Below, piece after piece: positions 1,970-64,000 of a DNA stretch of 64,000 nt. The translations under genes were made by a program, and so were the position numbers. How positions within the stretch are numbered: the stretch's first letter is position 1; each line of letters starts with the position of its first letter. The notes under the pieces are model-generated. The model saw only the letters and a program-made list of their open reading frames with translations, was not told where the DNA came from and did not search any database. Origin of the DNA: Isoetes taiwanensis (taxonomy: Eukaryota > Streptophyta > Lycopodiopsida > Isoetales > Isoetaceae); contig JAJEKV010000021.1 of NCBI GenBank assembly GCA_021234155.1, positions 12,275,760-12,339,759 on the forward strand, written 5' to 3'.

Positions 1970-2000
<31 letters not shown>

Positions 2001-3340
2001 GAGAGTAAGAATTTCCTCTCTGATTAACAATCAGTTGCATAAAACAGAATTGAGATGTAACTGTCCCATCATCATTAGGCTTTGGATCATGTAAATGCCT
2101 TTAACAAATTTTTATCGCCAAAACTACATCAGCCTCATAACATCTACAAGCCAATCTAAATTGCTCTTCTTGGTAATGATTCATGTCCATGGTCGTAATT
2201 TTATTAGTCCGCCATCATATTCCAAGTACTCACCGCCATTTTCTGCTCCAACACAAAAAAAAACTGACATTACCAACAAAAATGAAGCTCCTTTTGACCA
2301 CAATTGCAAATCTAGATACGCAGAATAGTATAGAAATTTGCCCATTCAGAAAAAAGAAAACAATTAACTAGGCACTAGTTAATCAACTAAAACTTGCAAA
2401 TAAAACAGAACAACTAAAAAATCAAACAATTAAAAAATAAAATCAAACAACTAAAATATTACCTTGGTGCTCAATATCAGCCAGCAATGCTCACTCGTCA
2501 GCATATGCTATCTAATCCACTTTCTTACGCTTCTTACAGACTCTAGGAGTTCTTCTAGACCTTTGCATTGTCGCCACACAAGCTAAACACGCCCTCTCAA
2601 AGATAGGACTTTCTCTTATATCAAAGGGATATTGTTGTACACCAGTTCTCGCAATTGTAAGTTTTTGATGTCTTCTAATGATGCTACCAAATTTTCTGAA
2701 CATGTCCTGCATATTGGATAAAAAAGAAGAAAGCATAAGAAAAAAGAATAAAACTGAAATGCAAGAAAAAAAAACTAAACTTACGATTCAGTTGGATAGA
2801 ATTGGCCATTGCATTTTGTCACTTGGAGCATAAATCTCTCAAGCTGTACAGAGAACTCTTGAAGGTCCATGCCCTCAATCCTCCTATCAACCGAAAGCCC
2901 TACAAACTCCCTCCAGAGATCAAATCTCTTTCTGGCCCATTGAATTTTATCGACAGACTTTTGAGCACCACCTGCATCTACTTTCCTCTAAAGTTCTTCA
3001 TCAACTTCTACAAAAGGCACTCGGATTCCACCATCAAGTACAATAGGATTTGAAGGCATTTCAAGTCTATTGAACATTCCAGATTCTTCAACATCATGCA
3101 TGTATGCATCTATTGCCTCATCACCAAACTAACAAACTATATCAGACTCAAATTCTTATAACCCCCTACTGCCAGCCTCATTTGCAATATGTTTACCAAA
3201 GCCACTGCATTCCACGCCCTTTCTTTTAGATGCATCAAGCACCCCCCCTCCCTGGCCATTCTGCTTTGCTGAATCAGAAGAAAGATTGGAAATATCGCTT
3301 AAAGCAGGTCTGCTCCCATCAAGAACCACATTCTGCTTAC
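1283..3340 (-). pseudogene. Crypton/DUF3504-type tyrosine recombinase relic, multi-exon
   Basis: Seen on the minus strand. A long exon (about 3340-2785) encodes an N-terminal region containing KIQWARKRFDLW and ERFMLQVTKCNGQFYP, and ends at a GTAAG donor. A second piece (about 2736-2465) encodes FRKFGSIIRRHQ, FDIRESPIFERA and a basic KKRKK stretch. A third (about 2265-2190) has GGEYLEYDGGLIKLRP. A fourth (about 1870-1755) has RMVRAGVPQNVGMRITGQRT and splices over a GTATTT...TAG intron to a piece starting YDKNKEVEAK. This order matches the DUF3504 (Crypton-derived, KCTD1/QRICH1/ZMYM-type) tyrosine recombinase fold: core-binding helices, an EYLE strand, then GHxxxxxxxxY. The final Tyr sits nine residues after the position of the conserved His, which is Gln here. 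Several in-frame stops (TAA, TAG, TGA) mark it as decayed. The family call is by pattern; exon borders are approximate. Confidence 0.5.
1971..2000. repeat. Poly-T homopolymer
   Basis: A run of about 28 T residues after a short CT-rich stretch (CTCTCTCTTTT). On the minus strand it would be a poly(A) run inside the recombinase relic, probably intronic. Confidence 0.8.
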
Positions 3341-43842: not shown

Positions 43843-44439
43843 TGTGACGTCCCCTACTCATATACGGTGCACTCACCGTATACAAACAGGAGTTCATCCC
43901 CCATACCAGCTCCATGCTGATACAAGGCCCTCCACATGTCACTGCAACCTTGACGAGTTCCAGTGGGAAGAATGAAGGGGTCATTTTACCCTATCTCCCT
44001 CAGGGCCTACCTAGCTGCGGAAGCGTAAACATACATGTCAGTACACATACAGCGATAGCACATGACCATCACGAAGGATGGCTCACCACATATCTGCATA
44101 GACAAAGATCAGCACATCACACATGGAGATTCTACCCAAGGCTTAGACTCAAGAGGGATGACTGACGGCTTGGGCCTCCAGAAGTTATTGCAGACAGAAT
44201 TCATGGCAATGGATTTGGCTGGCATAAGAACATGGCTTAGGGTAGTCCACTCCATCCGCCCCTCCTGTGCACACTTTGCAGAGTAGGTTGAAAAGTGTTG
44301 GGACCTGACTGTAGCCCGCCGGATACATAGCCAAAGGGGCTACCCCTGGGTTGCATCGCCCCAGTTCCGATGGGGCAGGTAGGGATTGCTCCCACCAGAG
44401 GTTGGCATGCTGACTCAAGGTGACTAGAGGGCCACTGCC

Positions 44440-46922
44440 AGGGCTCAAATTTGACGGCTTTCACGCCTGTTTTTGGCATTTTTGCCTGTCAAAACAAGCA
44501 AAAATAAAATTTGTATTGCAAATGAAAGGTGGCCAATGACCAAATGCCTGTCATACAGAAGGGCCATCAAAATACATATTTGTCATTTGAAAGGCTAGAA
44601 ATTTAAATTGTCCTGTCATTTTTTTTTATTTTCTTATCTTTTTGTAAATAAAATTTTATTTATTTATTTTTATTTTATTTATCTAATGCTCACTTAGGAC
44701 CTTTAGAGGCCATGGAGCACTAATTCAAAAATGATCAGTGTGTCTCCACCTTGCTTATATACTCTCCTAACAAATATGGTTCCAAATTCAACAATGCTGG
44801 AAAGTCTTCCATGTGTATGCTGAACTCAACTCTAATATGCTCATAAGCTGAGCAATGTAGAAATGTATGTGCCTCATCCTCTACATCTCCCGAACCACAT
44901 ATCTCACACTTCCTGTCTCCCATGGGAACTTTGAACCACCTGCCTACTTCAATTCACAGGCGATGAGAACTGGTTCTGTACCTGGCTATAATTTGTTTAT
45001 ATGCTTTTGGAATATCTGAACATAAGTAAGCTTGGCTTTTGTAATCTATAATGCTGTTGACTTCTCTTCTATAGTGTACCATTCTACTACCTGGGGCAGC
45101 CCATAAGTAATCTATTGCAAGTCTTTCCAATATGGCTCTTGCCTCCTTTTTGTCACTAGGCCAATTGGCTTCTGACAGCCCCCATTTATTAGCCCAATTC
45201 CAAAAATCTCTTAGCCACCCTTGCTCAGCATTAGCCATAGCTTGATGGGAGATTCGAGCTGGACTCTGTTCTCTAAGCCTATTTACAAAATTTATAGATT
45301 GGTATAGAGCTTCAAGCTCTAAGGGGAACATCCCAGCTTCTGCAAGCATGATTGCATATGGAATTTGAGCTTTGATTCCCAGCTCCTCCCGCAAGAACAT
45401 TTTCTGCACGCCTTGTGGCGTGACGTTAAAATCTCTTCTTCTTCTTCTTCTATTTGGCTCCATAGCCTTGCTGAGCATCCTGGCCCCCATACTGGAGTTC
45501 CATATAGGAATAATGTTTGTACTAATGTTTTGAAAAGCATTTTTTTCAGCTCCCAATCTATTAGAGATGCTTTATGACACCTCGTAAGCATACTATACAA
45601 AGCTGATTTACCTCCCATGACTCTTATTTTCACACATTCCTTCCAATTGTATTTTGAAGCAAAATCAATGCCTAAATATTTGTAGCAGTCTACTATTTCA
45701 AGTGTATGTCCCTGGTAAAAGAAATCGGGTCTCTCCTTGGTTCCAAATATCATGATTTTGGACTTTCATCCCCTTTGTCATGCAAAATAATTCTAGCCCG
45801 TGCAAGTGCTTCTGCAATATTTGTTTCTTGTTGGCTAATAACACCACATCATCTGCATATAATAAGAGCTGGAAAAGGTATGTACCTATTTGTGTGCCTG
45901 ATAGAGACTGATTTTTCAGCCATTCTTCTAGTTCATCAATGAATATGCCAAATAGAGTTGGAGATAACGGGCACCCCTGACGTACCCCCACCGTGCTTTT
46001 CACTAATGTGCTTAAATTCATAGAAACTTTAATCAATACCTCTGAATATAATGAGCTATGGCTTCTCTAATTTCTTTAGGGACCCCAATCTGTATCATTC
46101 TCTCACTCAGTTTATCTCTTGGAACAGAGTCAAATGCTTTTGCAAAGTCAATAAATGCCACAAACAATGCTGCATTTGGATTTCTAGCCTTCTCCACTAA
46201 TACTCGAAGTGCAAGGGCATGGTCTAAGGTATTATGCCCCTTCCTAAAACCAGCCTGGTATGGCGAGCGCTTGCTATGTTCTTCTGCCCAAGAACTAAGT
46301 TTATATTCCAAGAGACTGGCCATAATTTTAGCAAATGTATTTCCAATTAGAATTGTTCTGTAATTTGCTACATCCTTCTTGTCACCTGCTTTGTGAATTG
46401 GATGGACCATATTGGTCCTCCAACTATCAGGCAAACCACTTTTGAACCCTTCATTTATCAAGCCTGTAAGTGTGGACAAAGTCCTCTGTCCGCCCAATTT
46501 TAGGAGCTCCACACACACGCCATCCAAATCAAATGCTTTATTATTAGCCATATCACTTAATATCTCCTTCACCTCATGTTCTTTAAAAGCAATGCATGCG
46601 CTGGAGGCCATTCTTGACATGCTATTCTGACCACTCTTTTCATAGAGGTCTTTTACTAATTGCATCAGGGCATCTTCCCTTAAACTGGAGCGCTCAAATC
46701 TGCCCTTAAACATATCCCAGAAGGCTTTTGGTGTATGTTTGAGGTGTTTATAATAGACTTTATAACGTTCTTTTTTTTTACATAAAAAATAGTTTCTGTC
46801 ATTTGGGATTTTTGTCTTGCATTTGAAAGGTTAAAATTGAAAGACTTCCTGTCAAGAGAAAGGCGTAAATTTTTTTCGCCTGTCCCCAAGAAAATTAGGG
46901 GTAGCCTTCAAATTTGAGCACT
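44440..46922. mobile_element. MULE-like non-autonomous element carrying a LINE fragment
   Basis: The ends are 20-bp terminal inverted repeats with two mismatches: AGGGCTCAAATTTGACGGCT at the left and the complement of AGTGCTCAAATTTGAAGGCT at the right. They are flanked by the 10-bp direct duplication GGCCACTGCC (44430-44439 and 46923-46932). TIRs plus a 9-11-bp target duplication are typical of Mutator-like elements. The interior is a LINE ORF2 segment plus flanking AT-rich sequence with repeated CCTTTCAAATG(A)CA motifs near both ends. No transposase is seen. The superfamily call is inferred. Confidence 0.6.
44735..46713 (-). pseudogene. LINE ORF2 fragment inside the MULE-like element
   Basis: 46713-46033 encodes the RT fingers (NNKAFDLDGVCVELLKLGG, YQAGFRKGHNTLDHA, FIDFAKAFDSVPRDKL). 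46036-45698 encodes VGVRQGCPLSPTLFGIFIDE and YADD. 45753-45319 and 45556-44954 give the connection region (GIKAQIPYAIMLAEAGM), and 44923-44735 the CEICGSGDVEDEAHTF tail. Frameshifts occur at ~46035, ~45765, ~45440 (next to a short CTT microsatellite expansion) and ~44950. It is a close relative of the plus-strand copy at 48211-49749. Confidence 0.9.
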
Positions 46923-48210: not shown

Positions 48211-49918
48211 GCATAATACCTTAGACCATGCCCTTGCACTTCGAGTATTAGTGGAGAAGGCTAGAAATCCAAATGCAGCATTGTTTGTGGCATTTATTGA
48301 CTTTGCAAAAGCATTTGACTCTATTCCAAGAGATAAACTGAGTGAGAGAATGATACAGATTGGGGTCCTTGAAGAAATTAGAGAAGCCATAGCTCAGTTA
48401 TATTCAGAGGTATTGATTAAAGTTTCTATGAATTTAAGCACATTAGTGAAAAGCACGGTGGGGGTACGTCAGGGGTGCCCGTTATCTTCAACTCTATTTG
48501 GCATATTCATTGATGAACTAGAAGAATGGCTGAAAAATCAGTCTCTATCAGGCACACAAATAGGTACATACCTTTTCCAGCTCTTATTATATGCAGATGA
48601 TGTGGTGTTATTAGCCAACAAGAAACAAATATTGCAGAAGCACTTGCACGTGCTAGAATTATTTTGCATGGCAAAGGGGATGAAAGTGAATGTGGCTAAA
48701 TCCAAAATCATGATATTTGGAACCAAGGAGAGACCCGATTTCTTTTACCAGGGACATACACTTGAAATAGTACACTGCTACAAATATTTAGGCATTGATT
48801 TTGCTTCAAAATACAGTTGGAAGGAATGTGTGAAAAGAAGAGTCATGGGAGGTAAATCAGCTTTGTATAGTATGCTTACGAGGTGTCATAAAGCATCTCT
48901 AATAGATTGGGAGCTGAAAAAAATGCTTTTCAAAACATTAGTACAAACAGTATTGCTATATGGAACTCCGGTATTGGGGCCAGGATGCTCAGCAAGGCTA
49001 TGAAGCCAAATAGAAGCCGTGCAGAAAATGTTCTTGCGGGAGGAGCTGGGAATCAAAGCTCAAATTCCATATGTAATCATGCTTGCAGAAGCTGGGATGT
49101 TCCCCTTAGAGCTTGAAGCTCTATACCAATCTATAAATTTTGTAAATAGGCTTAGAGAACAGAGTCCAGCTCGAATCTCCCATCAAGCTATGGCTAATGC
49201 TGAGCAAGGGTGGCTAAGAGATTTTTGGAATTGGGCTAATAAATGGGGGCTGTCAGAAGCCAATTGGCCTAGTGACAAAAAGGAGGCAAGAGCCATATTG
49301 GAAAGACTTGCAATAGATTACTTATGGGCTGCCCTAGGTAGTAGAATGGTACACTATAGAAGAGAAGTCAACAGCATTATAGATTACAAAAGCCAAGCTT
49401 ACTTATGTTCAGATATTCCAAAAGCATATAAACAAATTATAGCCAATTATAGCCGTGGGTAAAAGCATGTTAACCACTTTTGGAACTCATCATACACTAG
49501 GTATACGAATTGAAACTAATACAAAAATCCAAAATAAAAGTCAAGTGGTTCAAAGTTCCCATGGGAGACATGAAGTGTGAGATATGTGGTTCGGGAGATG
49601 TAGAGGATGAGGCACATACATTTCTACATTGCTCAGCTTATGAGCATATTAGAGTTGAGTTCGGCATACACATGGAAGACTTTCCAGCATTGTTGAATTT
49701 GGAACCATATTTGTTAGGAGAGTATATAAGCAAGGTGGAGACACACTGATCATTTTTGATAAAGTTGTAAATATTAGTGCTCCATGGCCTCTCAAGGTCC
49801 TAAGTGAGCATTAGATAAATAATGGCTACCTTTCATTTGCAATACAAATTTTATTTTTGCTTGTTTTGACAGGCAAAAATGCCAAAAGCAGGCGTGAAAG
49901 CCGTCAAATTTGAGCCCT
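48211..49918 (+). mobile_element. LINE ORF2 fragment, second copy, inverted relative to the first
   Basis: 48211-49003 encodes RT from HNTLDHALALRVLVEKAR through YADD to YLGIDFASKYSWKE. 49019-49462 encodes GIKAQIPYVIMLAEAGM and MVHYRREVNSII, and 49510-49749 the CEICGSGDVEDEAHTF tail. The right end is AGCCGTCAAATTTGAGCCCT, the same TIR-like terminus as in the copy at 44440, but the left terminus is missing: similarity starts abruptly at 48211 after a short TTCGAGGTACT duplication. It lies in the 3' UTR of the retrotransposon. Point differences from the first copy are few. Confidence 0.85.
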
Positions 49919-50261
49919 GGTTGCAAGTCTTCGTAGCTCGACCTCCTTGCCCTCCGGAGCGCTCTATTGGCCTGCAGGTCGACACTACGTTAGTACCATT
50001 TAAATTATTAATAGAATTATGGTTATAAGGTAACCACCCATCTAATTAACTAAATGGATGCATGACTAATCTCCCGGCGTAGGAAGAGGATGCTTCTTCC
50101 ATCGTGGCCGTGGAGACAGCGCCCTATAATGCCTAGGATGACACTCATGCATACACCTTTAGTTGCCTTGGGCGTGAAGGTGGCGTCCTTCCCGTAGGCA
50201 TTGACTAGAGGTGCTTTCCTATCAATGCATTCTCGAATGGCCTCTTATCTCTCGAGGTTAT

Positions 50262-50469: not shown

Positions 50470-52095
50470 CGACATGCCTGAGCCGATTACTTCGGAGATG
50501 ACCTTGCCGTCCCATTGCTCCATGAACTGCGGGTACTGCCTTATGAGGTCCTTCTTAAGTACCTATGTCGCGTCTTCCACCGGCAAGTGTTTCCACTTGA
50601 CCAAATATTGGAGGAACTCTGATCTCCTTGTTTTCTTGAAGGCTTCATCAAGAATCAATTCTGGAACTATCTCCAGCTGCTCTTCTGTCATTTCTAACAA
50701 CGTTGGTGTGTCCAAGACTTCTTTTGGATTTGGAGTATGCTTCTTCAACAAACTCACGTGGAAGACTTTATGAATTTTCAGGTGTGCTGGCAGCTCTAAC
50801 TTGTAGGATTGGTTACCTACTCTCTTGGCTATTCTGAAGGGGCCAGCCCACCTTGGAGCAAGCTTCTTACAATTTCCGATGCGGAGCTTCACCTGCTTCA
50901 CTTTGATCTTGAGCCAGACATTGTCGCCAACCTGGAACTCTCTAACCGTTCGATGCTTGTCGGCAACGCTCTTTTGGCGACGCCTTGCTGCAAGAAGATA
51001 CCCTCAGACTTCTTCTACCAGCTGCTGCATGACGGCCAACATTTCCTGCGAAACTTCTACCTTTGACACAGAATTGTGCCAAGTGTCTGGAGTTAGACAT
51101 TGGTAGCCGTAGTTGATCATAAACGGCGACATCTGGGATGATTCCTGCTTGGTGCTATTATAAGCAAACTCAACCAAGTGAATGTACTCTTCCCACTTAC
51201 TCTGCTTGTTCCAGACATAGTTTCTTAGCATATCTTCCAAGATTCTGTTGGTCCGTTCTGTTTGCCCATCCGTCTGAGGATGATAGGCCGTGCTCATGGA
51301 CAGCTTCGTCTGGATCGTCGCAAAAAGATCCTGCCAAAAGGCACTCATGAACTTCGGGTCTCTGTCGGAGATGATCTCTCTCGGCATGCCATGGAGCCTG
51401 AAGATTTCTTTGGTGAAGAGAGCCGCTGTATCCAAGGCTGTGTCGATGGTCCTGCAAGGCACAAAGTGTGCCATCTTCGACAGCTTGTCGACCACAACCA
51501 TCAGGGCATCTTTTCCTCTTGCTGTCCTCGGGAGCCCTGTTATGAAGTCCATAGTGATGACTTCCCACTTAGCGTTCGGCACCGCTAATGGTTCCAATGC
51601 CCCTGGAATTTGAAGCTGCTCTGCCTTCGTCTGCTGACACAACTGGCACTCCTTGATGTAGCGAGCTATCTGCTTCTTCATCCTTGGCCAATAACAGCTG
51701 CTGCGCACTTTGAAATATGTCTTCATAAATCCTGCATGGCCAGCTATTGGACTGTTGTGGGTGTCGTGGAGAATCAACTTCCTCACTCCTGATGATTCCG
51801 GCACACACAACTTATTCTTATGGTACAAAAGGTTACCTTCCTTCTTAAAATTCTTGAAGGTCTCCCTCTCCGTATCTGTTATTGCCTCCCTGCACAAGCT
51901 CGCCCACACTTCCTTGAAGTCTGCATCTGTCGGCAAGGTTTCTTCGATCTTCTTTCCGAAGTCACTGGTGAGCGTCGAAATTGCATTGCAATGGACTCTT
52001 ATTGTCAGAGGATGCCTTGAAAGTGCATCTGCTACCACATTGAGCTTCCCCGACTTATAAACTATATCAAAGTCATATTCTTCGAGGAACTCCAT
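50470..52095 (-). pseudogene. Integrase with C-terminal chromodomain-like region (pol part)
   Basis: One reading frame. A HHCC zinc-binding segment (HDTHNSPIAGHAGFMKTYF, ECQLCQQ) is followed by the catalytic core with Asp in ITMDFITGLP, Asp in IISDRDPKF and Glu in TDGQTERTN, then a GPFRIAKRVG...FHVSLLKK linker and a chromodomain-like LVKWKHLPVEDA. A TGA at 51004-51006 and a TAG at 50560-50562 interrupt it. The latter falls exactly at the conserved Trp after VEDAT, i.e. TGG to TAG. After it the frame stays open to about 50470. The integrase catalytic triad itself is intact. Integrase chromodomains can target insertion to marked nucleosomes. Confidence 0.9.
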
Positions 52096-53440
52096 CTACC
52101 TTCGCTGCCTCAGGTTGAGATGTGGTTGCGTGAACACGTATTGGAGGCTCTGATGGTCTGTGTCCAGCTGGAACTTCCTCCCCAACAGGTAGTGCCTCCA
52201 AATTCTTAGTGCTCTGACAACTGCAAGCAACTCTTGATCATGAGTCGGGTAGCGCGTTTCGGCGTCGTTCATCTTCCGGGAGTCGTAAGCCACTACTCGC
52301 TCTTCCTGCATCAGCTCTGCACCTGTGGCAATCTTACTTGCATCCGTCGCCACAAGTTTGTCCTTCTCGGGGTCTGGCAGGGTCAGGACGGGGCGGTTGT
52401 CAAAGCTTCCTTCAACATCTCGAATCTTGCTTGGGCTTTCTTCTGCCAGTGATCTGCCCAATCCTTTACTTTTTTTGCCCTCGTCAAATCTGTTAGTGGG
52501 GCCGCTATTTTTGCAAAGTTCTTCACGAACTTCCTGTAATACCCTGCTAGGCCAAGAAAGCTTCTGACCTCATGGATGTTCTTTGGCGCCGGCCACTGTA
52601 TGACTGCTTCAATCTTGGCAGGATCCGTCGAAATCCCCTCCGATGAGATCACATGCCCCAGATATTCTACCTTCTCTGTTACGAAGTGGCATTTCGACAA
52701 CTTAGCGTATAACTGGTGCCTTCTTAGCTTCTCGAGCACTTTCCTTAGGTGTTGAACGTGTTCTTCCAGGGATTTGCTGTACACCAAGATATCAATACTA
52801 TCACAAAAGTATCCAAAAACTCCCTGAAGATGTCGTTCATGAGCCTCATGAACGTTGCTGGGGCATTTGACAAGCCAAACGGCATTACGGTGAACTCATA
52901 ATGCCCATACCTAGTCCTGAATGCTGTTTTGTGGACGTTTTCTTCCTTAATCCTGATCTGATGGTACCCTGAACTTAGGTCTATCTTGGAGAAAACCTTC
53001 GCCCCTTGGAGCTGGTCCATCAAGTCGTCCGATCTGGGGAGTGCATACTTATTCTTGATGGTGTGCTTGTTCAACTGCCTGTAATCTATGCACATCCTCA
53101 AGCTGCTATCCTTCTTCTTCACAAAAAAGATGGGTGCCCCAAATGGTGAGACGCTAGGTCTAATGAACCCTAGGTCAAGCAACTCCTGCAATTGCTTCTT
53201 CAACTCGGTCAGCTCTTGCGTCGTCATCTTGTATGGAGCTTTGCTCGTCGGCTTCGTACCTGGTTCGAGTGCTATCTCGCACTTGACTCCTCTGTAAGGA
53301 GGAATCTGCTTGATCTCGTCTGGGAAGAGATCATGGAACTCCTTGACCAACTTAGCTATCTGCCTTGGCAATTTGCTGAGCACCTTATCTTCCTTGCTTT
53401 CTTCTGACTCGGGCTCCTCAATCTGAAGCTTGAAGACAGA
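52096..53440 (-). pseudogene. Reverse transcriptase and RNase H (pol part), disabled
   Basis: RT motifs in order: [52 protein letters not shown]. The catalytic loop should follow near 52800, but a ~7-nt deletion removes part of the xDD motif and shifts the frame. The thumb continues at 52787 ([44 protein letters not shown]). RNase H (LVATDASKIATGAEL, ELLAVVRALRIWRHYL, DTDHQSLQYVF) occupies 52461-52096 in a third frame and ends at a TAG in place of a Trp codon. This copy cannot make active RT. Confidence 0.92.
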
Positions 53441-53768
53441 CTATCTGCTCGCTCTTTATGCACTTGAGCAGCCGCTTACTAGACATATACTGCATGATAG
53501 GAACAATTTCCTTACCTGTAATTTCTATGATTTTGCCGTTGGGCGCCGTGAGGGTCACCTTCCGCTTCCCACAATCAATGATGGCTTCTGCTGGTCCAAG
53601 ATACTCCATTCCTATGATCAAATCATACTTCCCGATGTTCATCACTTCTGCCCCCATTTGAATGTTGATCCCTGGCAAATCGATGTCGAAATTTATCCTC
53701 TTGCCTGCCGTGAACACCACGGGTCTCGGCTTTGACTTCAACGGCTTGAGCTTCAACATCTCAACCAT
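53418..53768 (-). pseudogene. Retroviral-type aspartic protease (pol part), frameshifted
   Basis: The active-site IDTG lies at the end of the gag frame (about 53800). A run of five G residues there shifts the frame, and the rest of the protease follows in this frame (INFDIDLPGINIQMGAEVMN, YDLIIGMEYLGPAEAIIDC, whose GMEYL is the flap/helix segment of Ty3-type proteases). One G fewer would join gag and protease, as expected for a single gag-pol frame. A second shift near 53435 separates it from RT. Confidence 0.8.
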
Positions 53769-55221
53769 TCTTGGAGACGCAAAGTTGTGGGTGCTCCCCC
53801 GTATCTATCAGGACTATGAAGGATTTGGCCTTGGCCTTCCCTACTGTGGAGATTACCTGATACTGATTTTCTGCTTGGTCTGAATCTATGGCAACAAAAA
53901 TGTGACACTCACCCTGAATGAAGTCGTGTGCCTCCCCGCCGTCGTCGTCAGAGGGAGTCTCCCATCCACCCAACTCTGCTAATGCTGCATTCATGACAAA
54001 AGGGTAGTTTGCTGTTCTGTGGCCTGGCTGGAAGCATCTGAAGCAGAGCTGTTTCTCAATGCACTCCTGCCTCTTCTCCTTAGGCATTGCTTGTAAAAAG
54101 GATCGCACTGCTTTCGAATAATTTGACCCCTCTTGCTTATCCTTGAAGAATACCTGTTTCTTCTCCTGCTGCTTCCCATAATTGCCACTGTATGGAGCTT
54201 TTGCTGGTCCTGGACTAGCTGTTCTAGGGCTATAACTTCCCGTTGCTTTGCCCTTATCCTGATAGTACTGCTGTTTCTGCCCGCTGTTCTGAGGGCCGGA
54301 TCCTTGCAGGCTGACTCCTTTCGACTCCCCTTCTGATACTGTTCGAGGGTTAATTGCTCTTACCAGCTTCCTTATCTCATCATTTAATCCCTCGATGTAC
54401 CCTTCCACTGCATGACGCTCACTTAGCTTTGGCACATAAAGCCTCAGTTTCATAAACTCTTCCGTATATTTCTGCACGGACTTGTTGCCATGCTGTAGCC
54501 GATAGAATTGCTGCATCATATGACATTTGTGCTCCCTTGGCACATAGTGGCGCTTGAATGCCTTTGAGAATTTCCGAAACCTGTAGCTGTCTCGGTTCAG
54601 TCCATGTGCTTTGGCGTATCCCTTCCACCAAATGCGAGCTGCGCCCTTGAGGTTGGCTGTTGCCACCCTGCCTTTGTCTTTGTCCTTCATTCCGTATGCA
54701 TTCCCATATTCCCTCATCTCGTCCAGCCCGGCCTCTGCCTCCATGCCTGACCGACTATCCCCTGAGAACTGCTCAAGCTTTCTTGCCTTCCATACATTAC
54801 TCAGCGCCGAGTCTACTTTCTTCTGGTAGTCTGAGGTCTTTGTGTCCTTGGGTCTGCCGTCTCTACGGTCCTGCACCTGTTCTACCTCTTCCTCGGAGTC
54901 GGAGTCCGAATCTGAGCTTGTGTTGGAGGAATCCGTGCTTGGGGACCTCCTTCTCTTGCTCTTCTTCTTATCCTTTCCTGCCTTTCGAGGTGGTGCTTGC
55001 GGCAACTGGACATTGTCATCTGGGCCAACTCCTGCTTGTGCTGCCAGAAAAGCCTTTATTTCTTGAAGATCCGATCTCATCTGCGACATCTCCTCTTCGG
55101 GGGTCATGGGACCGAATTCTTCGTACAGGTTCCTTGCTGGATGCTGTCTGGCCAGGGTCTGTTCATCTCTACGGACTTGCCGCTCTTGTTCGACTGTTCC
55201 TGGACCTCTAGCTGCATACAC
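53761..55221 (-). CDS. Gag polyprotein of the Ty3/gypsy element
   Basis: A 486-codon uninterrupted frame. It has an N-terminal charged region, a basic KDKKKSKRRRSPSTDSS stretch followed by an acidic Ser/Asp/Glu run (about residues 80-115), and a retrotransposon-gag capsid domain (about 180-300: AARIWWKGYAKAHGL, MMQQFYRLQHGNKSVQKYTEEF, EGYIEGLNDEIRKLV). A Gln/Ser/Gly-rich linker and a zinc knuckle CFRCFQPGHRTANY (about 405) follow, and the frame runs into the protease IDTG. The last knuckle position should be Cys but is Tyr (TAC), so metal binding is probably impaired. Met at 55221 is the only candidate start upstream of the capsid with a long open frame. Confidence 0.9.
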   Translation of the reverse strand: MYAARGPGTVEQERQVRRDEQTLARQHPARNLYEEFGPMTPEEEMSQMRSDLQEIKAFLAAQAGVGPDDNVQLPQAPPRKAGKDKKKSKRRRSPSTDSSNTSSDSDSDSEEEVEQVQDRRDGRPKDTKTSDYQKKVDSALSNVWKARKLEQFSGDSRSGMEAEAGLDEMREYGNAYGMKDKDKGRVATANLKGAARIWWKGYAKAHGLNRDSYRFRKFSKAFKRHYVPREHKCHMMQQFYRLQHGNKSVQKYTEEFMKLRLYVPKLSERHAVEGYIEGLNDEIRKLVRAINPRTVSEGESKGVSLQGSGPQNSGQKQQYYQDKGKATGSYSPRTASPGPAKAPYSGNYGKQQEKKQVFFKDKQEGSNYSKAVRSFLQAMPKEKRQECIEKQLCFRCFQPGHRTANYPFVMNAALAELGGWETPSDDDGGEAHDFIQGECHIFVAIDSDQAENQYQVISTVGKAKAKSFIVLIDTGEHPQLCVSKNG

Positions 55222-55384: not shown

Positions 55385-56925
55385 CTATTCTTGGAATCGC
55401 CGGAAGGATGGATTATCCAGAAGAAACTTCTTAACTTGGGCCGTTCCTACCGAGCGTCCCAAGTTTATGAGGATGTTCGTTGGTGTCCCGCCCTGCAAGG
55501 CTGCCACCAAGTCTTCTACCCTGCAGTCGGAAGTGTAGGCCGCGGTCACTGCTAATCTTCCTTGCCATCGGTAGGGTACGGCGAAGTCGAAGATATTAAT
55601 TGCCATCGTTCTCTTGACTAGGATGACATGGTCAACTGTTGGGATCAGTCGAGCATGCCTTCCAAAGCCTGAGAGTGCGATGAGTATGAACACTCCTTCT
55701 TCGCCCCTTGGGCTGAATTTGCGATGGATGACCACTATTCTCCCGTCCATCAGCAGAGGAAGATAATACCTTAGCGACCTGTCCCTGCCCGTCGCTGTTG
55801 ATTCGTCGTCAGGTCGGGCACCGACTCTATGTCTTCCCGCATATTCATCGACGTCAGTCTCTGTAAGTTCTCCGTGGTCTCTGATTGTTGATGTGATTCT
55901 CCTCAGGTCGATCTCGCCCCTTCTCTGAATATCTGTAGGAGCTGGTGTCGAAGAATTTGGCATCAAAATGTTCGTGGTCTTGCCACGGATCCCCATCCAT
56001 TCTTGGATGGCGTAGAATTCTTCTTCGGACGGCAGATCCCGAGCTTCCATCATTTGCCGAATGCTGCTGTACGCCTGGATATCTGAAGTCGACTCCCCAG
56101 TGTAGGTGTCGGCTTCTCTTACATGTATCGGGAAGTCGGAAGCCTCCCGGTCGATGAAGTCATCCAGATCTGGTTGTTGCTGCAGAAGATACAGCAATTC
56201 ATCAAGTTGGTACTCCCTGGCTCTGCATTCGGGGAAGTTCTGGATGTCACTCAGGAGCAGGTACTCCTGGCCGTTGATGATGATGGGGGCTAGGCTTGTG
56301 ATACCTAGCCCGAGCGGGGGAGCGATCCTTAGGGTCTGCCGGTCATGTTCGAAAGCCGGTATCTCCTGCTCTGCTAGCTGCCGCTCTTGGTTGGGGTCGA
56401 GCTCGACGTAGTCTTCATCATCTGAGTCAAGCGCTTCGTCTTCGGCTCTTCCTTCTTGCTCCACTTGATATTGCAAGAGGAGCTGACCCTCTGCTGAAGA
56501 GGCTAAGGGGTCTACATCCATGGTAGGGATAGAGGGTTCCCCGATTGGCTTTTGGGCATGGTGAGAAAGAAAGATGGCTAGGGCAACGGTGTAGGAGAAA
56601 TACTTGGCCCTATTAGCTGACATGACCATGTAGTCTGGCAACCTAGCAACTTTGTTGTTTAGATATTTGGCAATGTCGGGGACATCATCTAAGGCTGCTT
56701 GGACGGATTGCTTGGGAACAAAATATCCTGTACAAGGGAGAAGCTGTACTAAGGATGGTCCTACTCTAGCTTGGAACTCAGTCATGACTTCCATATAGGA
56801 TGGGGCTGCCTGCAAGGTGGCTTGGACATCTATCTCCTCTAGAAAACTTGGAAAATGGCATTGACATCAGCCTCAGCTACATGGGCACTGGCGCTGTACC
56901 ATCGCCTGAAATCTGCAGTTGCCAT
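55385..56925 (-). CDS. Accessory ORF of the retrotransposon, unknown function (~510 aa, one frameshift)
   Basis: The frame is open from 56815 to 55385 (476 codons). In-frame sequence continues upstream to a better start, ATG at 56925 (MATADFRRWYSASAHVAEAD), with one lost base at about 56845 near a TTTTC run. Visible features: an acidic patch (DEALDSDDEDYVELDPNQE, about residues 175-195); a QEYLLL strand; a Glu/Asp-rich middle; and a C-terminal half with mixed hydrophobic strands (YYLPLLMDGRIVVIHRKFS, VFILIALSGFGR). There is no signal peptide, membrane segment, zinc finger or catalytic motif I recognise. It sits between the H3-like gene and gag and is preceded by its own pair of 63-bp palindromes. 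That context suggests a function linked to the H3-like protein, for instance a chaperone-like partner, but this is speculation. Confidence 0.7.
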
Positions 56926-57240
56926 TGATCTTGAGTAAACTGGACTAACAAACAGCTGTTGAAGCACCTAAGGGAGCTGGGAAATCGCCTAAAAGTTGGA
57001 AGCAAACCTGTAGGATGCTAAGTGAGAAATGGGGATCTATTTATAGGCAAAGGAGAAACCCTAATTTTTGGACAGCTTGGAAAAATCTTGAGGTTGGGCA
57101 ATTCACATCTATTTTGAGGTCAAAATGAAGATCGAAAAGCTAATTTGAGGGTTTGAGCATGAATAAGACTATCTAATGATCCTATTGCAACAAACTTGAG
57201 GTCAATTGGAGGTGGCATGAAAGAGAAAATGTTGAAAGTA

Positions 57241-57303
57241 CTCAAGGTGTGCGCTGGGGGGCTGACCTAAAATTTAGGTCGAGGTCCTGACACATACCAT
57301 GAG
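57241..57303 (-). promoter_or_regulatory. 63-bp palindromic element, copy 1
   Basis: Imperfect dyad: CTCAAGGTGTGCGC at the left, (C)ATACCATGAG at the right, with the central palindrome GACCTAAAATTTAGGTC. It lies ~320 bp upstream of the unknown accessory ORF start (minus strand). It is diverged from copy 2 in its outer arms. Confidence 0.7.
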
Positions 57304-57442
57304 CAATTTGCCCCTAATCGGTCAAGACTTGTTTAAACAAGATGAACTAAGGGTCAAAACATGATGTCTCACCGAGATATGCAAGATTGACCCCTTATTT
57401 GGTTGATTTGGAGATGTTTGGGACTACTTTTGGTGTGAAATA

Positions 57443-57505
57443 CTCACGGTGTGCGCCTGGGGCCTGACCTAAAATTTAGGTCGGGGTCCTGGCGCATACC
57501 GTGAG
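57443..57505 (-). promoter_or_regulatory. 63-bp palindromic element, copy 2
   Basis: The best-preserved copy. The outer arms CTCACGGTGTGCGCC and GGCGCATACCGTGAG are complementary except one base, and the centre is GACCTAAAATTTAGGTC. It lies 202 bp from copy 1, between the H3-like gene stop and the unknown ORF. Confidence 0.8.
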
Positions 57506-57651
57506 CAACTTCTCACTAATTGACCATAAGATGTAGAATTTGACTAAAACAAAAAGCAATTATTGCTAGCTCGACCTAATTAACAATATTTATGCATTTA
57601 GAATTTACTCAAAACAACTTTTTATTAACAAAATTTATTATTTACAAGGTT

Positions 57652-58897
57652 TTATCTTTCTCCTTTAATGGAACTGGCCAAGCGCATGTCCTTGGTCATC
57701 AGAGTTACCCTCTTGGCGTGTATAGTGCACGTCGTGGAGTCTTCAAAATGCTGCACCAGCTTCTGCTCAGCTGCTTCTTGCAAGGCTAGCAGCATCTCGC
57801 CTGTGACTCTCTTGCTGGAATCGAACTCCTGCACAACCTCCTTGACGAGCCTGGCAAATGGTGCTCGCGGGATGAGAAGACCATAGCCTCTCTGAAAATG
57901 CCGGATCTCCCGGATTGCTTGTGATAGCTTCGATCCGGACTTCCTGGCTAATGGCTTCTTGGGGGGAACCGGATTCTCTGGAGGTGGCTTGAGCGTCTGC
58001 TTCTTTGAGGGCCGTTCTCCTTCAACATAGGTGACCTTGTTCGCCTGGTAGTAGGAGTTGTAGGCCTCCCACTTCTTCATATATTCCTGGCAGGCCTTCA
58101 ACTTCTTTTGGTAGACCCTGCGATGGTCTACCACATAAGACTCTCGGGCAGGTCGTGGTAGCTTCTTCGGATCTTTGTCCTTCACCCACGTGGGGTAAGG
58201 TGGGGGTGTCTGTACCTGTTGATCCCTGTCCGTTCGATCCTGGTCTGTTCGATCCTCCTCTGTTGGCTTGGAGGAGCTCCCACCTTCTTGATGAGGATTG
58301 TAATCTTCATCGTCTGAGTCGTCCGAGGATGCGGGCTGGTCGGCCGGCCGTTCGTTGATGACGATCTTGGTCCTTGGTGTTGTCTTGATCTTCCTCTTGG
58401 GCTCCACCTTGTCTTTTGCCCTTGAGTTTCTTCTTTTGTTCTGCCTCCCTTTCTTCTCTTTTCCTCTTCTTCTCGGCCTTTTTCTTCTCGCGGCGTCGTG
58501 CCTTCGCCTCGTGCATCTTGATCCAGGCCTCGAGCTGTTCTTCTTCGGTTGGCTCGGGAGTGGGCTCCCTCTGCTCCTCCTGTGCCTTGGCCGCCTGCTC
58601 TCGTTCTTGTTTCTCCCTTTCCATTTGCTCGAACACTCTCTGAATTTCGTCATTCTCTGATCCAATGTCTGCTCCTTCGCCCACCTGCTGGTTGATGCCG
58701 TCAACCAGATCTTCTAGTGATCCTTGCTCGGATCCCTCCTCCTGCAGCTCCTCTGAAGTGCTCTCCTCGCCTGATGAAGGTTGGCCTCCCCCTGCGAGAA
58801 GTTGCTCCCGAAGCAGCTGCTGTATGCGCCTCTTGTCTTGGGCGCTGGGTGTTTCACCTCGTCGAGGAATCCTAGCAGTCTGTTTGGTGCGCGCCAT
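57652..58897 (-). CDS. Retrotransposon-encoded histone H3-like protein with long linker (~414 aa, one frameshift)
   Basis: Start ATG at 58897 (GACATGG context). The first residues, MARTKQTAR, equal the histone H3 N-terminus, then IPRRGETPSAQ replaces KSTGGKAPRKQ. Residues ~20-155 are Gln/Glu/Lys-rich and probably helical (QMEREKQEREQAAKAQEEQ, EAKARRREKKKAEKKRKRE). At 58419-58421 one extra G shifts the frame; the downstream frame continues with an acidic DDSDDEDYNP stretch, a Pro-rich region and LARKSGSK. The last 88 codons (57918-57655) are an H3 histone fold: REIRHFQ, LLIPRAPFARLVKEV, LALQEAAE, HAKRVTLMTKD, ending IKGER. By hand about 48 of 88 residues equal canonical H3, with no gap. H3-H3 interface residues (Cys110, His113, Arg116, Asp123, Leu126, Ile130 equivalents) and DNA-contact Arg83 and Thr118 are kept. 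REIRHFQ and LLIP resemble plant CENH3, but loop 1 has canonical H3 length. It lies between PBS and gag. Confidence 0.9.
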
Positions 58898-59111
58898 GTC
58901 TTACTTCACGTTAATCGGAGCTCTGGCGCCCAAAAATCGCCTCGAAGTGCGGAGCTAACTTCTAGACATGAAGTCTACAAATGAGAGGGGTCTGGGTCTA
59001 TTTATAGTTTGGGCAAATTTTAGGTCAAATTCTAAGTTGCTCCTTTCTATGTGTCAAAGCATCTATTAACCTAAAACATGTACTTACTTCAGAGTTTTCT
59101 AAGCAATTTTA

Positions 59112-59174
59112 CTCATGTTGTGCGCTAGAGGGCTGATCTAATATTTAGATTAAGGCTCTGGCGCATACTGTGAG
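59112..59174 (-). promoter_or_regulatory. 63-bp palindromic element, copy 3
   Basis: Diverged copy: CTCATGTTGTGCGC...GATCTAATATTTAGATT...GCGCATACTGTGAG. Compensatory changes keep the central dyad. It is ~215 bp upstream of the H3-like start codon. Confidence 0.7.
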
Positions 59175-59307
59175 CAATTTTACATTTTTAACTAAAAATC
59201 TATCCTAGGGGTGTGATATACAATTCTAGCTAACTCTTACCTTAAAATTTGATTTAGCATATTATCTTGTTAAGATTCTTCAAGTTGAAGGTGATTATGG
59301 CCAGTTA

Positions 59308-59370
59308 CTCATGGTGTGCGCCTGGGGCTCAACCTAAAATTTAGGTTGGTGCTCTGGCGCATACCGTGAG
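59308..59370 (-). promoter_or_regulatory. 63-bp palindromic element, copy 4
   Basis: CTCATGGTGTGCGCC...AACCTAAAATTTAGGTT...GGCGCATACCGTGAG, 196 bp from copy 3 and ~200 bp downstream of the PBS. As with copies 1-2, the pair precedes an accessory gene. Confidence 0.75.
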
Positions 59371-59565
59371 CAATTTCTACATTTGGTCCAAATTTAGTTC
59401 AACTTTTTAGTTTTCTTGGTTTTCAATTCTTCTAACTGTTACTAGCTTAGCATAACTACAAAAAAATGAGAAACTTTTTCCCACTTTTTCGAGGTTTGAG
59501 GATCTTACTAAGTTAGTACTACTGGGAGCATGGCCAGTGCTTCGCTCTTGGTCTCCAAGAACATT

Positions 59566-59577
59566 GCTCTGATACCA
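59566..59577 (-). other. Primer-binding site, initiator tRNA-Met
   Basis: TGGTATCAGAGC on the minus strand, complementary to the 3' end of plant initiator tRNA-Met. It is one base from the LTR end GTCACA. Confidence 0.9.
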
Positions 59578-59578
59578 C

Positions 59579-59608
59579 TGTGACGTCCCCTACTCATATA
59601 CGGTGCAC
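59579..59608 (-). repeat. Truncated 5' LTR (30 bp)
   Basis: Identical to 43843-43872 of the 3' LTR; similarity stops after GGTGCAC. The remainder of the 5' LTR is replaced by unrelated sequence that ends in a (TCTA)n tail. Confidence 0.8.
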
Positions 59609-59997
<389 letters not shown>

Positions 59998-60471
59998 CAC
60001 CCTTTAATGATGATGGGGGCTACCAAGCACTGCACTTGTCTCCAGGAAAGAATAGACATGAACCATGGTGCTCGAATGACACTATCAGTTATTCGTGAAG
60101 TTTTTGTACCATTGTATCTTTATTTTTTATTTAGTACATTGCAGAAGTGGTTTGATGGCATTGGACAATAATATCTTCTAGCATTTTGGCTCCAAAGCTT
60201 TTCTACCACTTAGAACATTGCAGCCCTTCCTAACATGGCCAAATTCTAGAAATTAGTGTTAACCGAAGTCATTTACGCTTATCTTACAAATGTGCATCTG
60301 TAACCATCATTTTTTAGGCTGGCTTAGTAGTTATAACAATGTTTTATATACTCACAGGAGGAGTTCAGATTCACAATTTAAAGATTTTTTAGAATGGTTT
60401 GCATCTTCAGTTAGAATATTTTAAAATAGTTTACATCATGATTAGAACTTATCGTTATGATGGAAGTAGAA

Positions 60472-60507: not shown

Positions 60508-60582
60508 GTAAGTGATACAATGTAGCCACTGTTATCAATTCACATATACAAAATTACACAATGAAGAGTATTCAACCAGCTT

Positions 60583-61376
60583 TCCTGCTTCCTCCTTCCT
60601 TTTTTCTTTTTCCTTTTGCCTTTTCCCCAACTTTCCTTTTCAAAAATTTCCCTTTCCCCTTTTCCTTTTTCCTTTTTTTTCCATTTCCCCATCCCCTTTT
60701 CCATTATCCCATTTCTCATTTCCCTTTCTTCATTTCTGCTTCCTTGTTTTCCTTTTCTTTTTTTTCCCTCCCCTTTTTCCTTCTCTTTTCTCACATTTTT
60801 GTTTTCCATTTTTTTCTTTCTTTTTCCTTTTTTCCCTTTTTCCCTCCCTTTATCTTTTTTATTTCCCTTATCCATTTTCTCATTCCTCGCTTTCCCTTTT
60901 TCTTTTTTCCCTCCCCTTTCTATTTTCCATTCTTTTCTCATTTCCCTTTTCCCTTTTTCCATTCCCACTGTTCTCCATTTCTCATTCTCATCTGCCTTTG
61001 TCCTTTTATGCTTCCCTTTTCCACTTTCCCAATCTCTACTCCCTTTTCCCCTTCCTATTTTCCTCTTCCCCCTTTCCTTTTTCTATTTTTTTCCATCTTT
61101 TTTTTACTGCCACTTTTTGCTTTCTCGTTCTTTTCCTTTTTCTATTTTCCCTTTTACCATTCACACCTATTCTCCTTTTCCCATCCTCATTTCCCTTTCT
61201 TTTCACGCTTCTCTTTTTTCTTTTCCATTTTTCCACTCCCCACCTTTCTTTTTCGTCTTTTCCCTTTTTCCATTTCCCCTCTCCTTATTGTCTTTCTTTT
61301 TTTCCCTTTTGTCCCTTCTCTTTTTCTCCATTTTTCTTTTCCATTGTTTTCTTTCTTTTTTCTTTTCTCCCCTTTC
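60583..61376. repeat. Polypyrimidine tract, ~0.8 kb
   Basis: Irregular TTCC/CCCTTTT units on the plus strand, as at 6568-7905. Long stop-free frames here are artefacts of the composition. Confidence 0.9.
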
Positions 61377-64000
61377 TAGGGAAAGGTTCTTGGAAGTGGA
61401 GTTCCATTGAGCTGGATGAGTGAAAATACAATGACCCATAAGGGTACCCACAATGAGGCCCCAACATGAGTGAATATGAGTGAAAAAATCCAACAATGAC
61501 CGCAACCATATAACTAGCTTAAAACATATAACTAGGCCCACGACCCACAAAGTTCCCGAACCCAAAACCGCATCCAAAGCCCGTCCAAGTCAGAATTGAC
61601 TAGACCAAAGCTGCACCTCGGCCCGCAACCCTCAAATATCGACTCCCAACCCCCACCCCAACTAGAAGGGGTAGAAGTGAAAACTGCAACTGCAACCACC
61701 TCGGAACTGCTGAAAATCGGCTATCATCTCAGTGTCAAGAAAGAGGATTGCGCCGAACTGCAAAACACAATCACACAGATGGTTAATGTGGAAAGGTTAG
61801 GAGCCCTATGGCCAAGCATGCAACGTGTTCGAAAGTCAAGCAGAGCACAAGAATCTGATGAGAAAAATAGCAGAATAGAGAAATTATAAAGAATCTTCGG
61901 AATCGACATTGCTACGCCGAGAGAGAAAATATATAGGTACACTAGGCCCAACTGTGGGGGTCTTCCCTTCAGTACCCTCTGGAAGCCACAAAGCTATGCC
62001 AGGAAAAGAAAATAGGCACATCCAATAGAAGAATCCTTTGGAGCCTACTCAGAAGTGACAAGTGCTACAACGGGAGAGAGAGAGAGAGAGAGAGCAAAAG
62101 CACGATTAATAGCCAACTGAGAAACAACCCGATGTCATGACATGAACCTACGCAAAAACAAAGAAAATACGTAGAAAATATGCAAGAAATATGATACGAA
62201 TATCCTTATGGTCGTCACACCCGATACAGATCCGGGTGGATAATACCCTTTTGATGAAGATTCTGTATAGTTAGAGCAAGATTTCGAGCCGCTTCAAGAA
62301 GATCCTGTATAGTTAGAGCCGCTTCCTTTCGTGATAGCCCCGCCTTTCTTGGCGACACTTCAAGCCCCGGTGTCCATCGTCTTTGACTAGCGATCGATTG
62401 CCATAGCTAGAGCGATAATGAAACCCATCGATCACAAAGTCAAAGGGAAACAAACACAATAGCAGGCGGGAAACAAACACAAGCATTAGGCAACCAATGG
62501 GATTGCATGACCTAGATCGAAATCTAGGCCGTCCATCTTGGCCCATCTTGGCCGTTTAATGAGATACATATTGTCAATAGCACATTTATAAGTTTACAAA
62601 AATGTGGTTTAATAGTACCCTATGTAAGATTACATGGTTTCCAAATTATGCGGTTTCTGCCCTTTCCTAAATTACATGGGAAGGACCTTATGGAAGTCAT
62701 TACCATGCCTCTTATACAAAGCAAGTCACAAATACGTGTTTTTAATGTTTCTAAGATAGACATATGCTTACCTAATAACTACAAATCAAGCAATAGGCTA
62801 ATACTACATAGTAGTATCACCATATGAAAGATCATCAACAGCACGAGTGCAGAAAATACCAGCTTTGGTGCCTCTTAAAAATGAATCCCAAAGGCATATT
62901 AAGAGCCTAAATTCAAAAGCATATCCTACCAAATTGCCAATAGATGTGAATCTATTATGGATAGTTTCGTTAAATGTAGAACCCTGCACTGCAAGTAACA
63001 CAAGCACATGCCAAGGACCAGCACGAAGCAGCTTTGCAAGTTCCATTAATAATGTAACCTTCCAGTCACCACTATAGCCATTCTTCAGTCATACTCTACA
63101 ATGGTCATGGGGTTTATACAAGTGATTTTCCTAGAAATCCTTTGACTACATATGAATACACTGGTTCACAGCTTGACATCTCTAGTTTAGCATATGTAAA
63201 GGCTACCGAGATCACAAAAATCCCTTATGGATCTAATGTTCAGATTGTAACCCTAGAAACCATCAATTTCTAAGCTTGAAGCCCATCCCTTTCACCTGCA
63301 TGGTCATGGCTTTTATGGGGTTAATTGACAACTTTTGGGTGACATGGCAAGATATGAGTGGTATGGACTGGATGACTAGGTATTTTTGCAAGAAAGTGGA
63401 CAATGTAAGAAATTGGACAACTCTTTAAGGTTTTTGTATCGGAATTTGGCAAGGATGAAACAAAGGGAACTTTAAGAACTTAGAGAAATTTTTTGTTACC
63501 CTTGTGGCACCAACGAACAGCATGGAAAAGATGATGTGGCAATCCAAGTGGTGACATGGCATGCCAAGTAAGCAAGGACAAGTGTTGACTAGGCCAAAAT
63601 GAAAAGATGTGCATCTTTCGTTTTCCATTTGATGATGTTGGCAAATCTTGGGTGACATGGCAAGATATTGGTGACCTAGACATGATGACTAGGATTTCAT
63701 GCAAGAAATATGGGTGTTAGTTGCTCGTAACATAGCTACCCAACAATGGTTGTCGAACAAGGAGTAGGTGTTCTGGCACCTCACTCTCCAATGACTCCTC
63801 TTGACTATTTTTGATCAAATTAGATTCCATTTGCCTTTTCTTTTGTTAAAAAATACTAAGAATACCCTTCTCCTAAAATGTTGTCTACCCAAATTATCCA
63901 AAAAGTTGAATTTCCCAAGTTTATGTTACCACCTCATGTCAAAGATTCCCAAGTCACCATGCAAAAATCTTATGTTTCAAAAGAGTAAAAAGTAACTAGT
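61377..64000. other. No supportable gene
   Basis: Short frames only; a 97-codon plus-strand frame at 61596-61889 has no recognisable motif. Other contents are a (GA)n run at 62073-62092 and a diverged duplication containing GGGTGACATGGCAAGATAT at about 63339 and 63650. Confidence 0.5.

Follow-up and report, generated by a model that had tools for sequence, protein, structure and literature searches.

A chromodomain-bearing Ty3/gypsy lineage of Isoetes taiwanensis encodes a histone H3-like protein whose fold is kept by selection

Introduction

Can a retrotransposon keep a histone as a gene of its own? Histones are known from cells and from some DNA viruses; the locus described here belongs to a retrotransposon lineage that keeps one under strong selection. 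It lies in a stretch of 64,000 nucleotides from the lycophyte Isoetes taiwanensis (assembly GCA_021234155.1, contig JAJEKV010000021.1, positions 12,275,760 to 12,339,759), which we call the window and whose internal numbering we use throughout. On its minus strand, positions 57652–58897 encode an H3-like protein of about 415 residues within a chromodomain-bearing Ty3/gypsy element. We asked whether the resemblance to H3 is real, whether other copies of the element carry the gene, whether it evolves under constraint, and what the element might do with it.

Results

An H3 start and an H3 fold at opposite ends of one protein

The H3-like protein starts with MARTKQTAR, runs through a charged linker of about 300 residues and ends in a C-terminal H3 fold. 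In the window it is divided between two minus-strand frames. Frame A (58307–58897, 196 aa) starts at the ATG at 58897, opens with MARTKQTARIPRRGE and contains the start and the first half of the linker, while frame B (57652–58704, 350 aa, stop at 57652) contains the second half of the linker and the fold (57655–57918, frame B residues 263–350). The two are out of register, with one frame change within 58307–58704; in uninterrupted copies, the frame A part runs into the fold in a single frame. The window copy of the element is dead.

Frame B residues 250–346 matched the Pfam family Histone (PF00125) with 84.3 bits (cut-off 26.4, E = 1e-23), and the solved chains closest to frame B by sequence are H3s (E = 4e-23). 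Against the H3 of 7ux9, the fold aligned without gaps over a core of canonical length with exactly 48 of 88 residues identical. An earlier sequence-only reading of this DNA had arrived at about 48 of 88 by hand for an ungapped 88-residue fold, had proposed a Pfam Histone check of the two frames, and had placed the ORF of a Ty3/gypsy element, with its H3 start and H3 fold at opposite ends, between primer binding site and gag; all of this was borne out once the frames, the primer binding site and gag had been located. The protein departs from canonical H3 in size (about 415 against about 136 residues), and in place of a tail with K9, K14, K27 and K36 the window protein matches H3 residues 1–8 only, preceded by a methionine (58871–58897, minus strand).

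Chance resemblance to H3 was ruled out by the Pfam and PDB matches, by the ungapped identity and by a simulation of H3 decaying without selection to the same identity. With one indel assumed per ten substitutions, 0 of 2000 simulated runs remained free of both stops and indels, and 209 of 2000 remained free of stops alone.

As modelled by AlphaFold, frame B (mean pLDDT 59.7, pTM 0.29) has the helices of the fold at residues 259–274, 280–294, 302–320 and 337–346, with block means of 53–87. The linker was predicted poorly apart from a long helix at residues 187–221 (58042–58146, minus strand), for which block means reach 82–92 over residues 191–220. When this model was submitted to Foldseek, each of the top 50 rows was a structure of a nucleosome, octamer or tetrasome (E = 1e-6 to 5e-6, 44–53% identity), with target TM-scores of 0.49–0.63. 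In the predicted structure the histone fold family is clear and the packing is loose.

The surrounding element is a chromovirus

The features flanking the ORF, all on the minus strand, are those of an LTR retrotransposon. The primer binding site TGGTATCAGAGC (59566–59577) is present as an exact 12-mer in 25 of 36 loci (L001–L030 and L061–L066, L001 being the window copy) and adjoins the final 30 bases of the 5′ LTR (59579–59608). This LTR is interrupted at 59608/59609, so its full length is not visible in the window copy; the 3′ LTR end (43843–43901) was matched by eye to LTR ends in other copies. Past the interruption lie a long TCTA tandem repeat (59819–60000) and then a pyrimidine-rich tract (about 60580–61380).

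The gag frame (53761–55221) matched Retrotrans_gag (7.7e-16) and Ty3_capsid (1.2e-12). It is followed by a pol broken into several frames (51004–53440), the pieces of which, searched apart, matched the Pfam families RVT_1, RNase H, H2C2 and rve, so that gag, reverse transcriptase, RNase H and integrase stand in gypsy order. The integrase C-terminus (50566–51003) consists of SH3_Tf2-1 (1.6e-22) and a chromodomain cut by a stop (Chromo, E = 3.7e-5), whose 24.0 bits fall slightly below the cut-off of 25.1 and which we still counted as a chromodomain. On the basis of gag and a broken pol with reverse transcriptase, RNase H, integrase and chromodomain, the element is a chromovirus. At what we take to be the aromatic cage positions in the chromodomain alignment, the first and last cage residues are missing by eye, as in plant type II chromodomains. 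Type II is used here as defined in a passage of PMC6317226. Between pol and the 3′ LTR we observed by eye frames that resemble non-LTR reverse transcriptases; 44438–45562 and 48901–49920, also in this interval, are inverted copies (87–98% identical) of a stretch resembling a non-LTR element.

Between the H3 ORF and gag lies a further frame, ORF2 (55385–56815, minus strand, 476 aa), which is matched in L061–L066; a start, MATADFRRWY (56925–56842), sits in another frame in the window copy. ORF2 gave no Pfam match at E up to 1, no homologue among 7999 candidates scored and no PDB match at E up to 10, and its single-sequence structure model was uninformative (mean pLDDT 33.5).

The H3 ORF recurs across the genome

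Searching the genome (1.66 Gb, 1110 contigs) with frame B yielded, from 20448 first-look candidates, at least 116 scored places including the window, 57–100% identical and spread over many contigs. Among L001–L030, the frame from the ATG is unbroken from the start to the end of the fold in two copies, L008 (415 aa, MARTKQTAR) and L026 (416 aa, MVRTKQTAQ).

A sample picked without regard to H3 was taken from the gag side. Of 88 gag loci, seven have open frames of more than 1160 aa, and for six of these we fetched 5.3 kb of upstream DNA. Five of the six (L061–L065) carry the H3 ORF, uninterrupted in L061 (427 aa, C-terminal end altered) and with a degraded fold in L064. In the sixth, L066, similarity to the others begins at about position 3203 and the whole 5′ part is missing; positions 1–3202 hold sequence with what looks by eye like a receptor-like-kinase-type frame. 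This replacement may reflect truncation, a nested insertion or gene capture. The kinase-like stretch and H3 residue K53, which is of the plant type, both point to a land-plant host. Among the matches listed, 13 of the 88 gag loci have an H3 match within 6 kb upstream on the same strand, a count of pairs typed by eye in which the upstream DNA itself was inspected in L061–L066 only. The distance from H3 match to gag is 2123–2441 nt in 11 of the 13, and 3526 and 4696 nt in the other two.

The fold evolves under constraint close to that of the capsid

Of the 36 loci, 29 entered the analysis of selection on the fold (L011, L021, L023, L024, L027, L064 and L066 were dropped for stops, gaps or lack of a fold). 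Across the 338 of 406 pairs with finite positive dS, median dN was 0.071, median dS 1.02 and median dN/dS 0.073, and none of the 338 pairs reached a dN/dS of 1. Pooled ratios were then compared by region, each from the loci that cover it (14–31 copies, stop-bearing ones dropped). Within the H3 ORF they were 0.34 for the N-terminal 45 residues, 0.24 for the first part of the linker, 0.20 for its middle, 0.19 for the helix part and 0.070 for the fold, which is the most constrained part of the ORF tested. The corresponding values were 0.18 and 0.25 for ORF2, 0.14 for the gag N-terminus, 0.041 for the capsid (104 of 153 pairs) and 0.094 for the gag C-terminus.

Nonsynonymous and synonymous variants of the fold stand at 52:106 where common to at least two copies and at 66:24 where private, against a neutral expectation of 3.5:1. 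Constraint on shared variants together with nearly neutral private changes is what a gene would show if selection holds it during replication of the lineage and lets it go once a copy has inserted. Copies chosen by protein-match ranking favour low dN, and six loci only were picked regardless of H3; among the gag-picked copies, dN/dS was 0.07–0.12 in the three of six pairs whose synonymous sites are not saturated. A fold dN/dS of about 0.07, near the capsid value of about 0.04, marks an element gene under selection rather than a captured pseudogene. In the sampled copies, the fold of the H3 ORF is kept by selection, copy after copy.

The sequence-only reading had named copies lacking the ORF as a sign of a chance insertion, and a dN/dS near 1 as an argument against function; the genome-wide recurrence, the gag-picked sample and the fold ratios gave the opposite picture. 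A single inserted H3 pseudogene was likewise ruled out by the number of genomic places and by the dN/dS of the fold.

The tail varies while presumed interface residues of the fold are retained

After three N-termini with stops had been dropped, 22 were readable. MARTKQTAR is exact in 14 of them and K4 is kept in 21, while the residue at H3 position 9 is K in 13, V in seven, I in one (the window copy) and shifted in one. Within the fold, 35 of 88 positions hold the canonical residue in 27 or more of the 29 copies, including C110, H113, K115, R116, D123, L126 and I130, which we take to be contacts in the tetramer (the H4/H3 interface) and with chaperones. Fixed departures from canonical H3 include R63P, L65A, Q68A and R72K, and residues 87–90 of helix alpha2 read EMLL. 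These positions are presumably contact sites for DNA and chaperones, and with such departures the element H3 could be kept from entering ordinary nucleosomes. The alpha2 site at 87–90 is termed a chaperone recognition site in a passage of PMC9145170. From its EMLL sequence, the comparison suggests a different deposition route for the H3 of the window's family, family A.

A related family has the same gene order

With canonical H3 as query, the best 150 of 9022 candidates comprised 15 host H3 genes (96–98% identical) and 135 further places, which are 71–86% identical over about residues 25–135; many of the latter lie in open frames of 420–567 aa, and a stop occurs in six of the 135. One copy of a related family, family B, was read. 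Its H3 ORF is about 400 aa long from its ATG (MAITKRAPDPTTLS), with the open frame extending further upstream, and begins MAITKRAPD, an N-terminal part unlike that of the window protein that is followed by a charged linker. The fold of this copy is identical to host H3 at 76 of 88 residues and groups with canonical H3 in the tree (support 96/90). Its pN of 0.11 from host H3, against a saturated pS of 0.93, indicates an old constrained gene rather than a recent capture.

The ORF directly downstream in this copy (L072:419–1498) is homologous to the window ORF2: BLASTP gave 27% identity over 343 aa (E = 5e-13), and profile scores were 19.1 and 10.7 bits, with 200 shuffles against the second model reaching at most 1.5. 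Further 3′ of this ORF2 lies a gag that is 58% identical to the window gag over 64 residues (E = 1e-24). The order H3-fold ORF, ORF2, gag is common to the family B copy and the window element. Genome-wide, 40 of 113 ORF2-type places have, among the matches listed, an H3 match 452–562 nt upstream on the same strand (35 from the canonical H3 query and five from the query with the database protein P0050). As a side observation, a frame of the ORF2 type (about 500 aa, dN/dS 0.18–0.25) accompanies the H3 ORF in both families.

Common to families A and B is a fold that follows a long extension; the tail is not shared. Some family A copies have lost K9 and family B starts differently, observations that argue against a reading centred on K9 and against a role as K9 decoy, and that would suit a function for which the ordinary tail is unnecessary or even a hindrance.

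Palindromic hairpins precede both ORFs

Four palindromic hairpins of about 85 nt each lie on the minus strand of the window, one pair upstream of the H3 ORF (59300–59387 and 59104–59191) and one pair in the interval between the H3 ORF and ORF2, ahead of the latter (57435–57522 and 57233–57320). With a covariance model built from them, 201 matches were obtained in 35 other loci, counting both strands. When the count is restricted to the element strand, at least one match occurs in 34 of these 35 loci, at least three occur in 23, and four in 17. In the 85 ungapped matches, 92.0% of pairs are formed, a figure biased upward because the matches were selected with the covariance model itself, and two-sided changes occur in 11 of 23 pairs (127 cells). 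Six slid controls gave 21–47% of pairs formed and two-sided changes in 4–8 pairs (4–60 cells). The hairpins could be protein-binding DNA sites, or else RNA hairpins or signals; an Rfam search of the window returned nothing at gathering scores.

Discussion

What the element might do with its own H3

The retention of the fold in copy after copy and the same gene order in family B argue for a regular gene of the lineage rather than a chance capture, and together the results suggest that the element uses its H3 to handle or reshape host chromatin. We consider it fairly probable that the H3 ORF is a regular gene of this chromovirus lineage whose product forms a pair with host H4 and either enters chromatin or docks onto it, most likely to counter silencing. 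On this account, a host H3 would have been acquired by an ancestral element in the distant past, jointly with ORF2 or next to it. The protein would pair with host H4 as H3 does, and would so enter or dock onto nucleosomes; histone-like pairing of this kind, which we infer from the retained residues that we recall as the H4/H3 interface, is likely. In place of the usual H3 tail and its silencing sites K9 and K27, there would then be the charged extension of about 300 residues. The most plausible use would be to protect the chromatin of the element's own copies, or its new DNA, from silencing, with guidance of the chromodomain integrase as second choice. Taken by itself, anti-silencing is a reasonable candidate that falls somewhat short of being probable. 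That the whole LTR lineage builds chromatin from its own H3 and host H4 on its copies, in nucleosomes free of the tail that is prone to silencing, and thereby sets its own chromatin state and evades K9/K27 silencing, would be a bolder claim, and we regard it as doubtful.

Several other explanations were weighed against this one. Passive capture, a single uptake of a host H3 that was then propagated as a functionless passenger, has a precedent in the capture and amplification of H3 by hAT DNA transposons in Dothideomycetes (described in parts of PMC6710886), but it is extremely unlikely here: the fold has a dN/dS of about 0.07 with synonymous sites near saturation, is constrained nearly at capsid level and occurs in the same gene order in family B. 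The constraint refutes passive capture unless the low dN is purely an artefact of choosing best matches, and the gag-picked copies speak against that. A derivation from, or mimicry of, centromeric CENH3, by which the element would reach or mark centromeres, has more in its favour and yet appears unlikely. The four full folds among the gag-picked copies have 48–52 identities to the eudicot CENH3 proteins P0080 or P0012 against 44–48 to canonical H3, and by eye the motifs RHFQ, LLIPxAPF, RVTxExL and TLMRKD are held in common. CRM chromoviruses target centromeres, and a clade of the element with plant CENH3, represented by angiosperm entries only, was not rejected (p-AU 0.26 and 0.064). Against this, alignment scores are level or favour canonical H3 (241 versus 228 at best, in L061; 231 versus 234 in L065), and the tree groups the element fold with CENH3 with a support of only 50/65. 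The element fold also lacks the longer loop 1 of CENH3; its loop has canonical H3 length, as the alignment is ungapped with H3 and takes a one-residue gap there with CENH3. In addition, the family B fold groups with canonical H3, the N-terminus reads MARTKQTAR, and the scored copies are scattered over many contigs.

The remaining alternatives concern function rather than origin. As an integration tether or target marker, the protein would bind chromatin and hand the site over to the integrase, whose chromodomain belongs to the same element; the partners of plant type II chromodomains are described as not identified in passages of PMC6317226 and PMC3350952. A chromodomain reading the tail would meet a variable sequence, though, and this use seems rather unlikely. 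Packaging, with the protein condensing element cDNA or RNA within or after the particle, would suit the highly charged linker and resembles a role discussed for the histones of Marseilleviridae (PMC9145170, in part); a lone H3-type fold would, on the other hand, need host H4. That the element H3 keeps what we recall as H4/H3 interface residues also weighs against packaging, which we judge quite unlikely. A decoy that soaks up H4, H3 chaperones or H3K4 readers would explain an H3 start with K4 kept in all but one of the readable copies, but family B starts differently, and a tail alone would need no fold under near-capsid constraint; such a role is improbable, as is any use beyond anti-silencing, integration or tethering, packaging and decoy.

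Relation to known systems

The sequence-only reading knew of no described system of this kind, and our search of openly readable papers likewise found no description of a retroelement with its own histone. The closest systems that may work alike are viral single H3s and bracovirus H4. The former, from Manila clam xenomavirus, Dishui Lake phycodnavirus and sylvanvirus, are lone H3-type histones of selfish genomes, some with lengthened N-terminal tails, and are thought to enter host nucleosomes; they belong to DNA viruses, and their folds are 73–87% identical to a host H3 (passages of PMC9145170). The window element, in contrast, is an LTR retroelement with many copies, a linker of about 300 residues and a fold with identity down to about 54%. 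The main text of that review (PMC9145170) contains no occurrence of 'retrotranspos'. Bracovirus H4 (CpBV-H4/CvBV-H4) is a parasite histone with an extended tail that joins host nucleosomes and alters expression (parts of PMC5423620 and PMC9145170); it is an H4 rather than an H3, and a polydnavirus virulence gene rather than a mobile element's own component.

The nearest mobile-element case is the transduplication of H3 by hAT elements in Dothideomycetes, which multiplied it to hundreds of copies. There the vehicle is a DNA transposon, the copies are RIP-inactivated in six species, those of P. tritici-repentis being called potentially active, and the passages of PMC6710886 concerned mention neither a long linker nor selection. 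The nearest functional model is VANC of the Arabidopsis VANDAL elements, a candidate for working alike in that an element-encoded protein acts on chromatin against silencing and the elements hold repeated target motifs; VANDAL is a DNA transposon, and the parts of PMC5735166 concerned name no histone. The window lineage, for its part, has the conserved palindromes described above. Plant Ty3/gypsy eORF elements have an extra ORF in their 5′ part and a chromoviral pol, but the main text of their survey (PMC6317226) uses 'histone' once, for the binding of H3 by chromodomains, and calls no eORF a histone. In a review of plant gene capture (PMC13317346), the word is absent from the main text. None of the nearest systems is a retroelement with its own histone.

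The finding makes the life of such elements under histone-based silencing testable, since one can ask whether, and at which sites, the element H3 becomes part of nucleosomes. A candidate chromatin partner for elements with this kind of chromodomain is a further gain. So is a natural experiment in H3 divergence: in the two families, identity to host H3 ranges from about 54% to 86% in a protein that apparently still works.

Similar proteins elsewhere

Database proteins with the same plan of tail, linker and fold include P0072 (402 aa, MARTKQTARK) and P0011 (281 aa, MPRTKQTARV), as well as P0050, P0013 and P0092, which are 72–92% identical to P0013, lie on contigs of 126–393 kb and include one that starts MTKTKMTKRK (P0050) and one without a full fold (P0092). 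If the lineage did build chromatin with its own histone, proteins such as P0011, P0072 and P0050 would make this a recurrent strategy. The fold trees neither show nor reject kinship of family A with canonical H3, plant CENH3, P0011 or the P0072 group, nor do they show or reject a single clade of the element with P0072-, P0011- and P0050-type proteins. In the I. taiwanensis genome, none of the 92 places listed for P0050 corresponds to P0050 at full length, these places being host H3 genes and H3 folds. Scans of viral contigs gave no relative. A match between the linkers of the window protein and of P0072 and P0008 disappears under composition correction. P0072, P0008, P0051 and P0071 form a separate group of 324–402 aa with glutamate/arginine-rich linkers and an H3-type fold.
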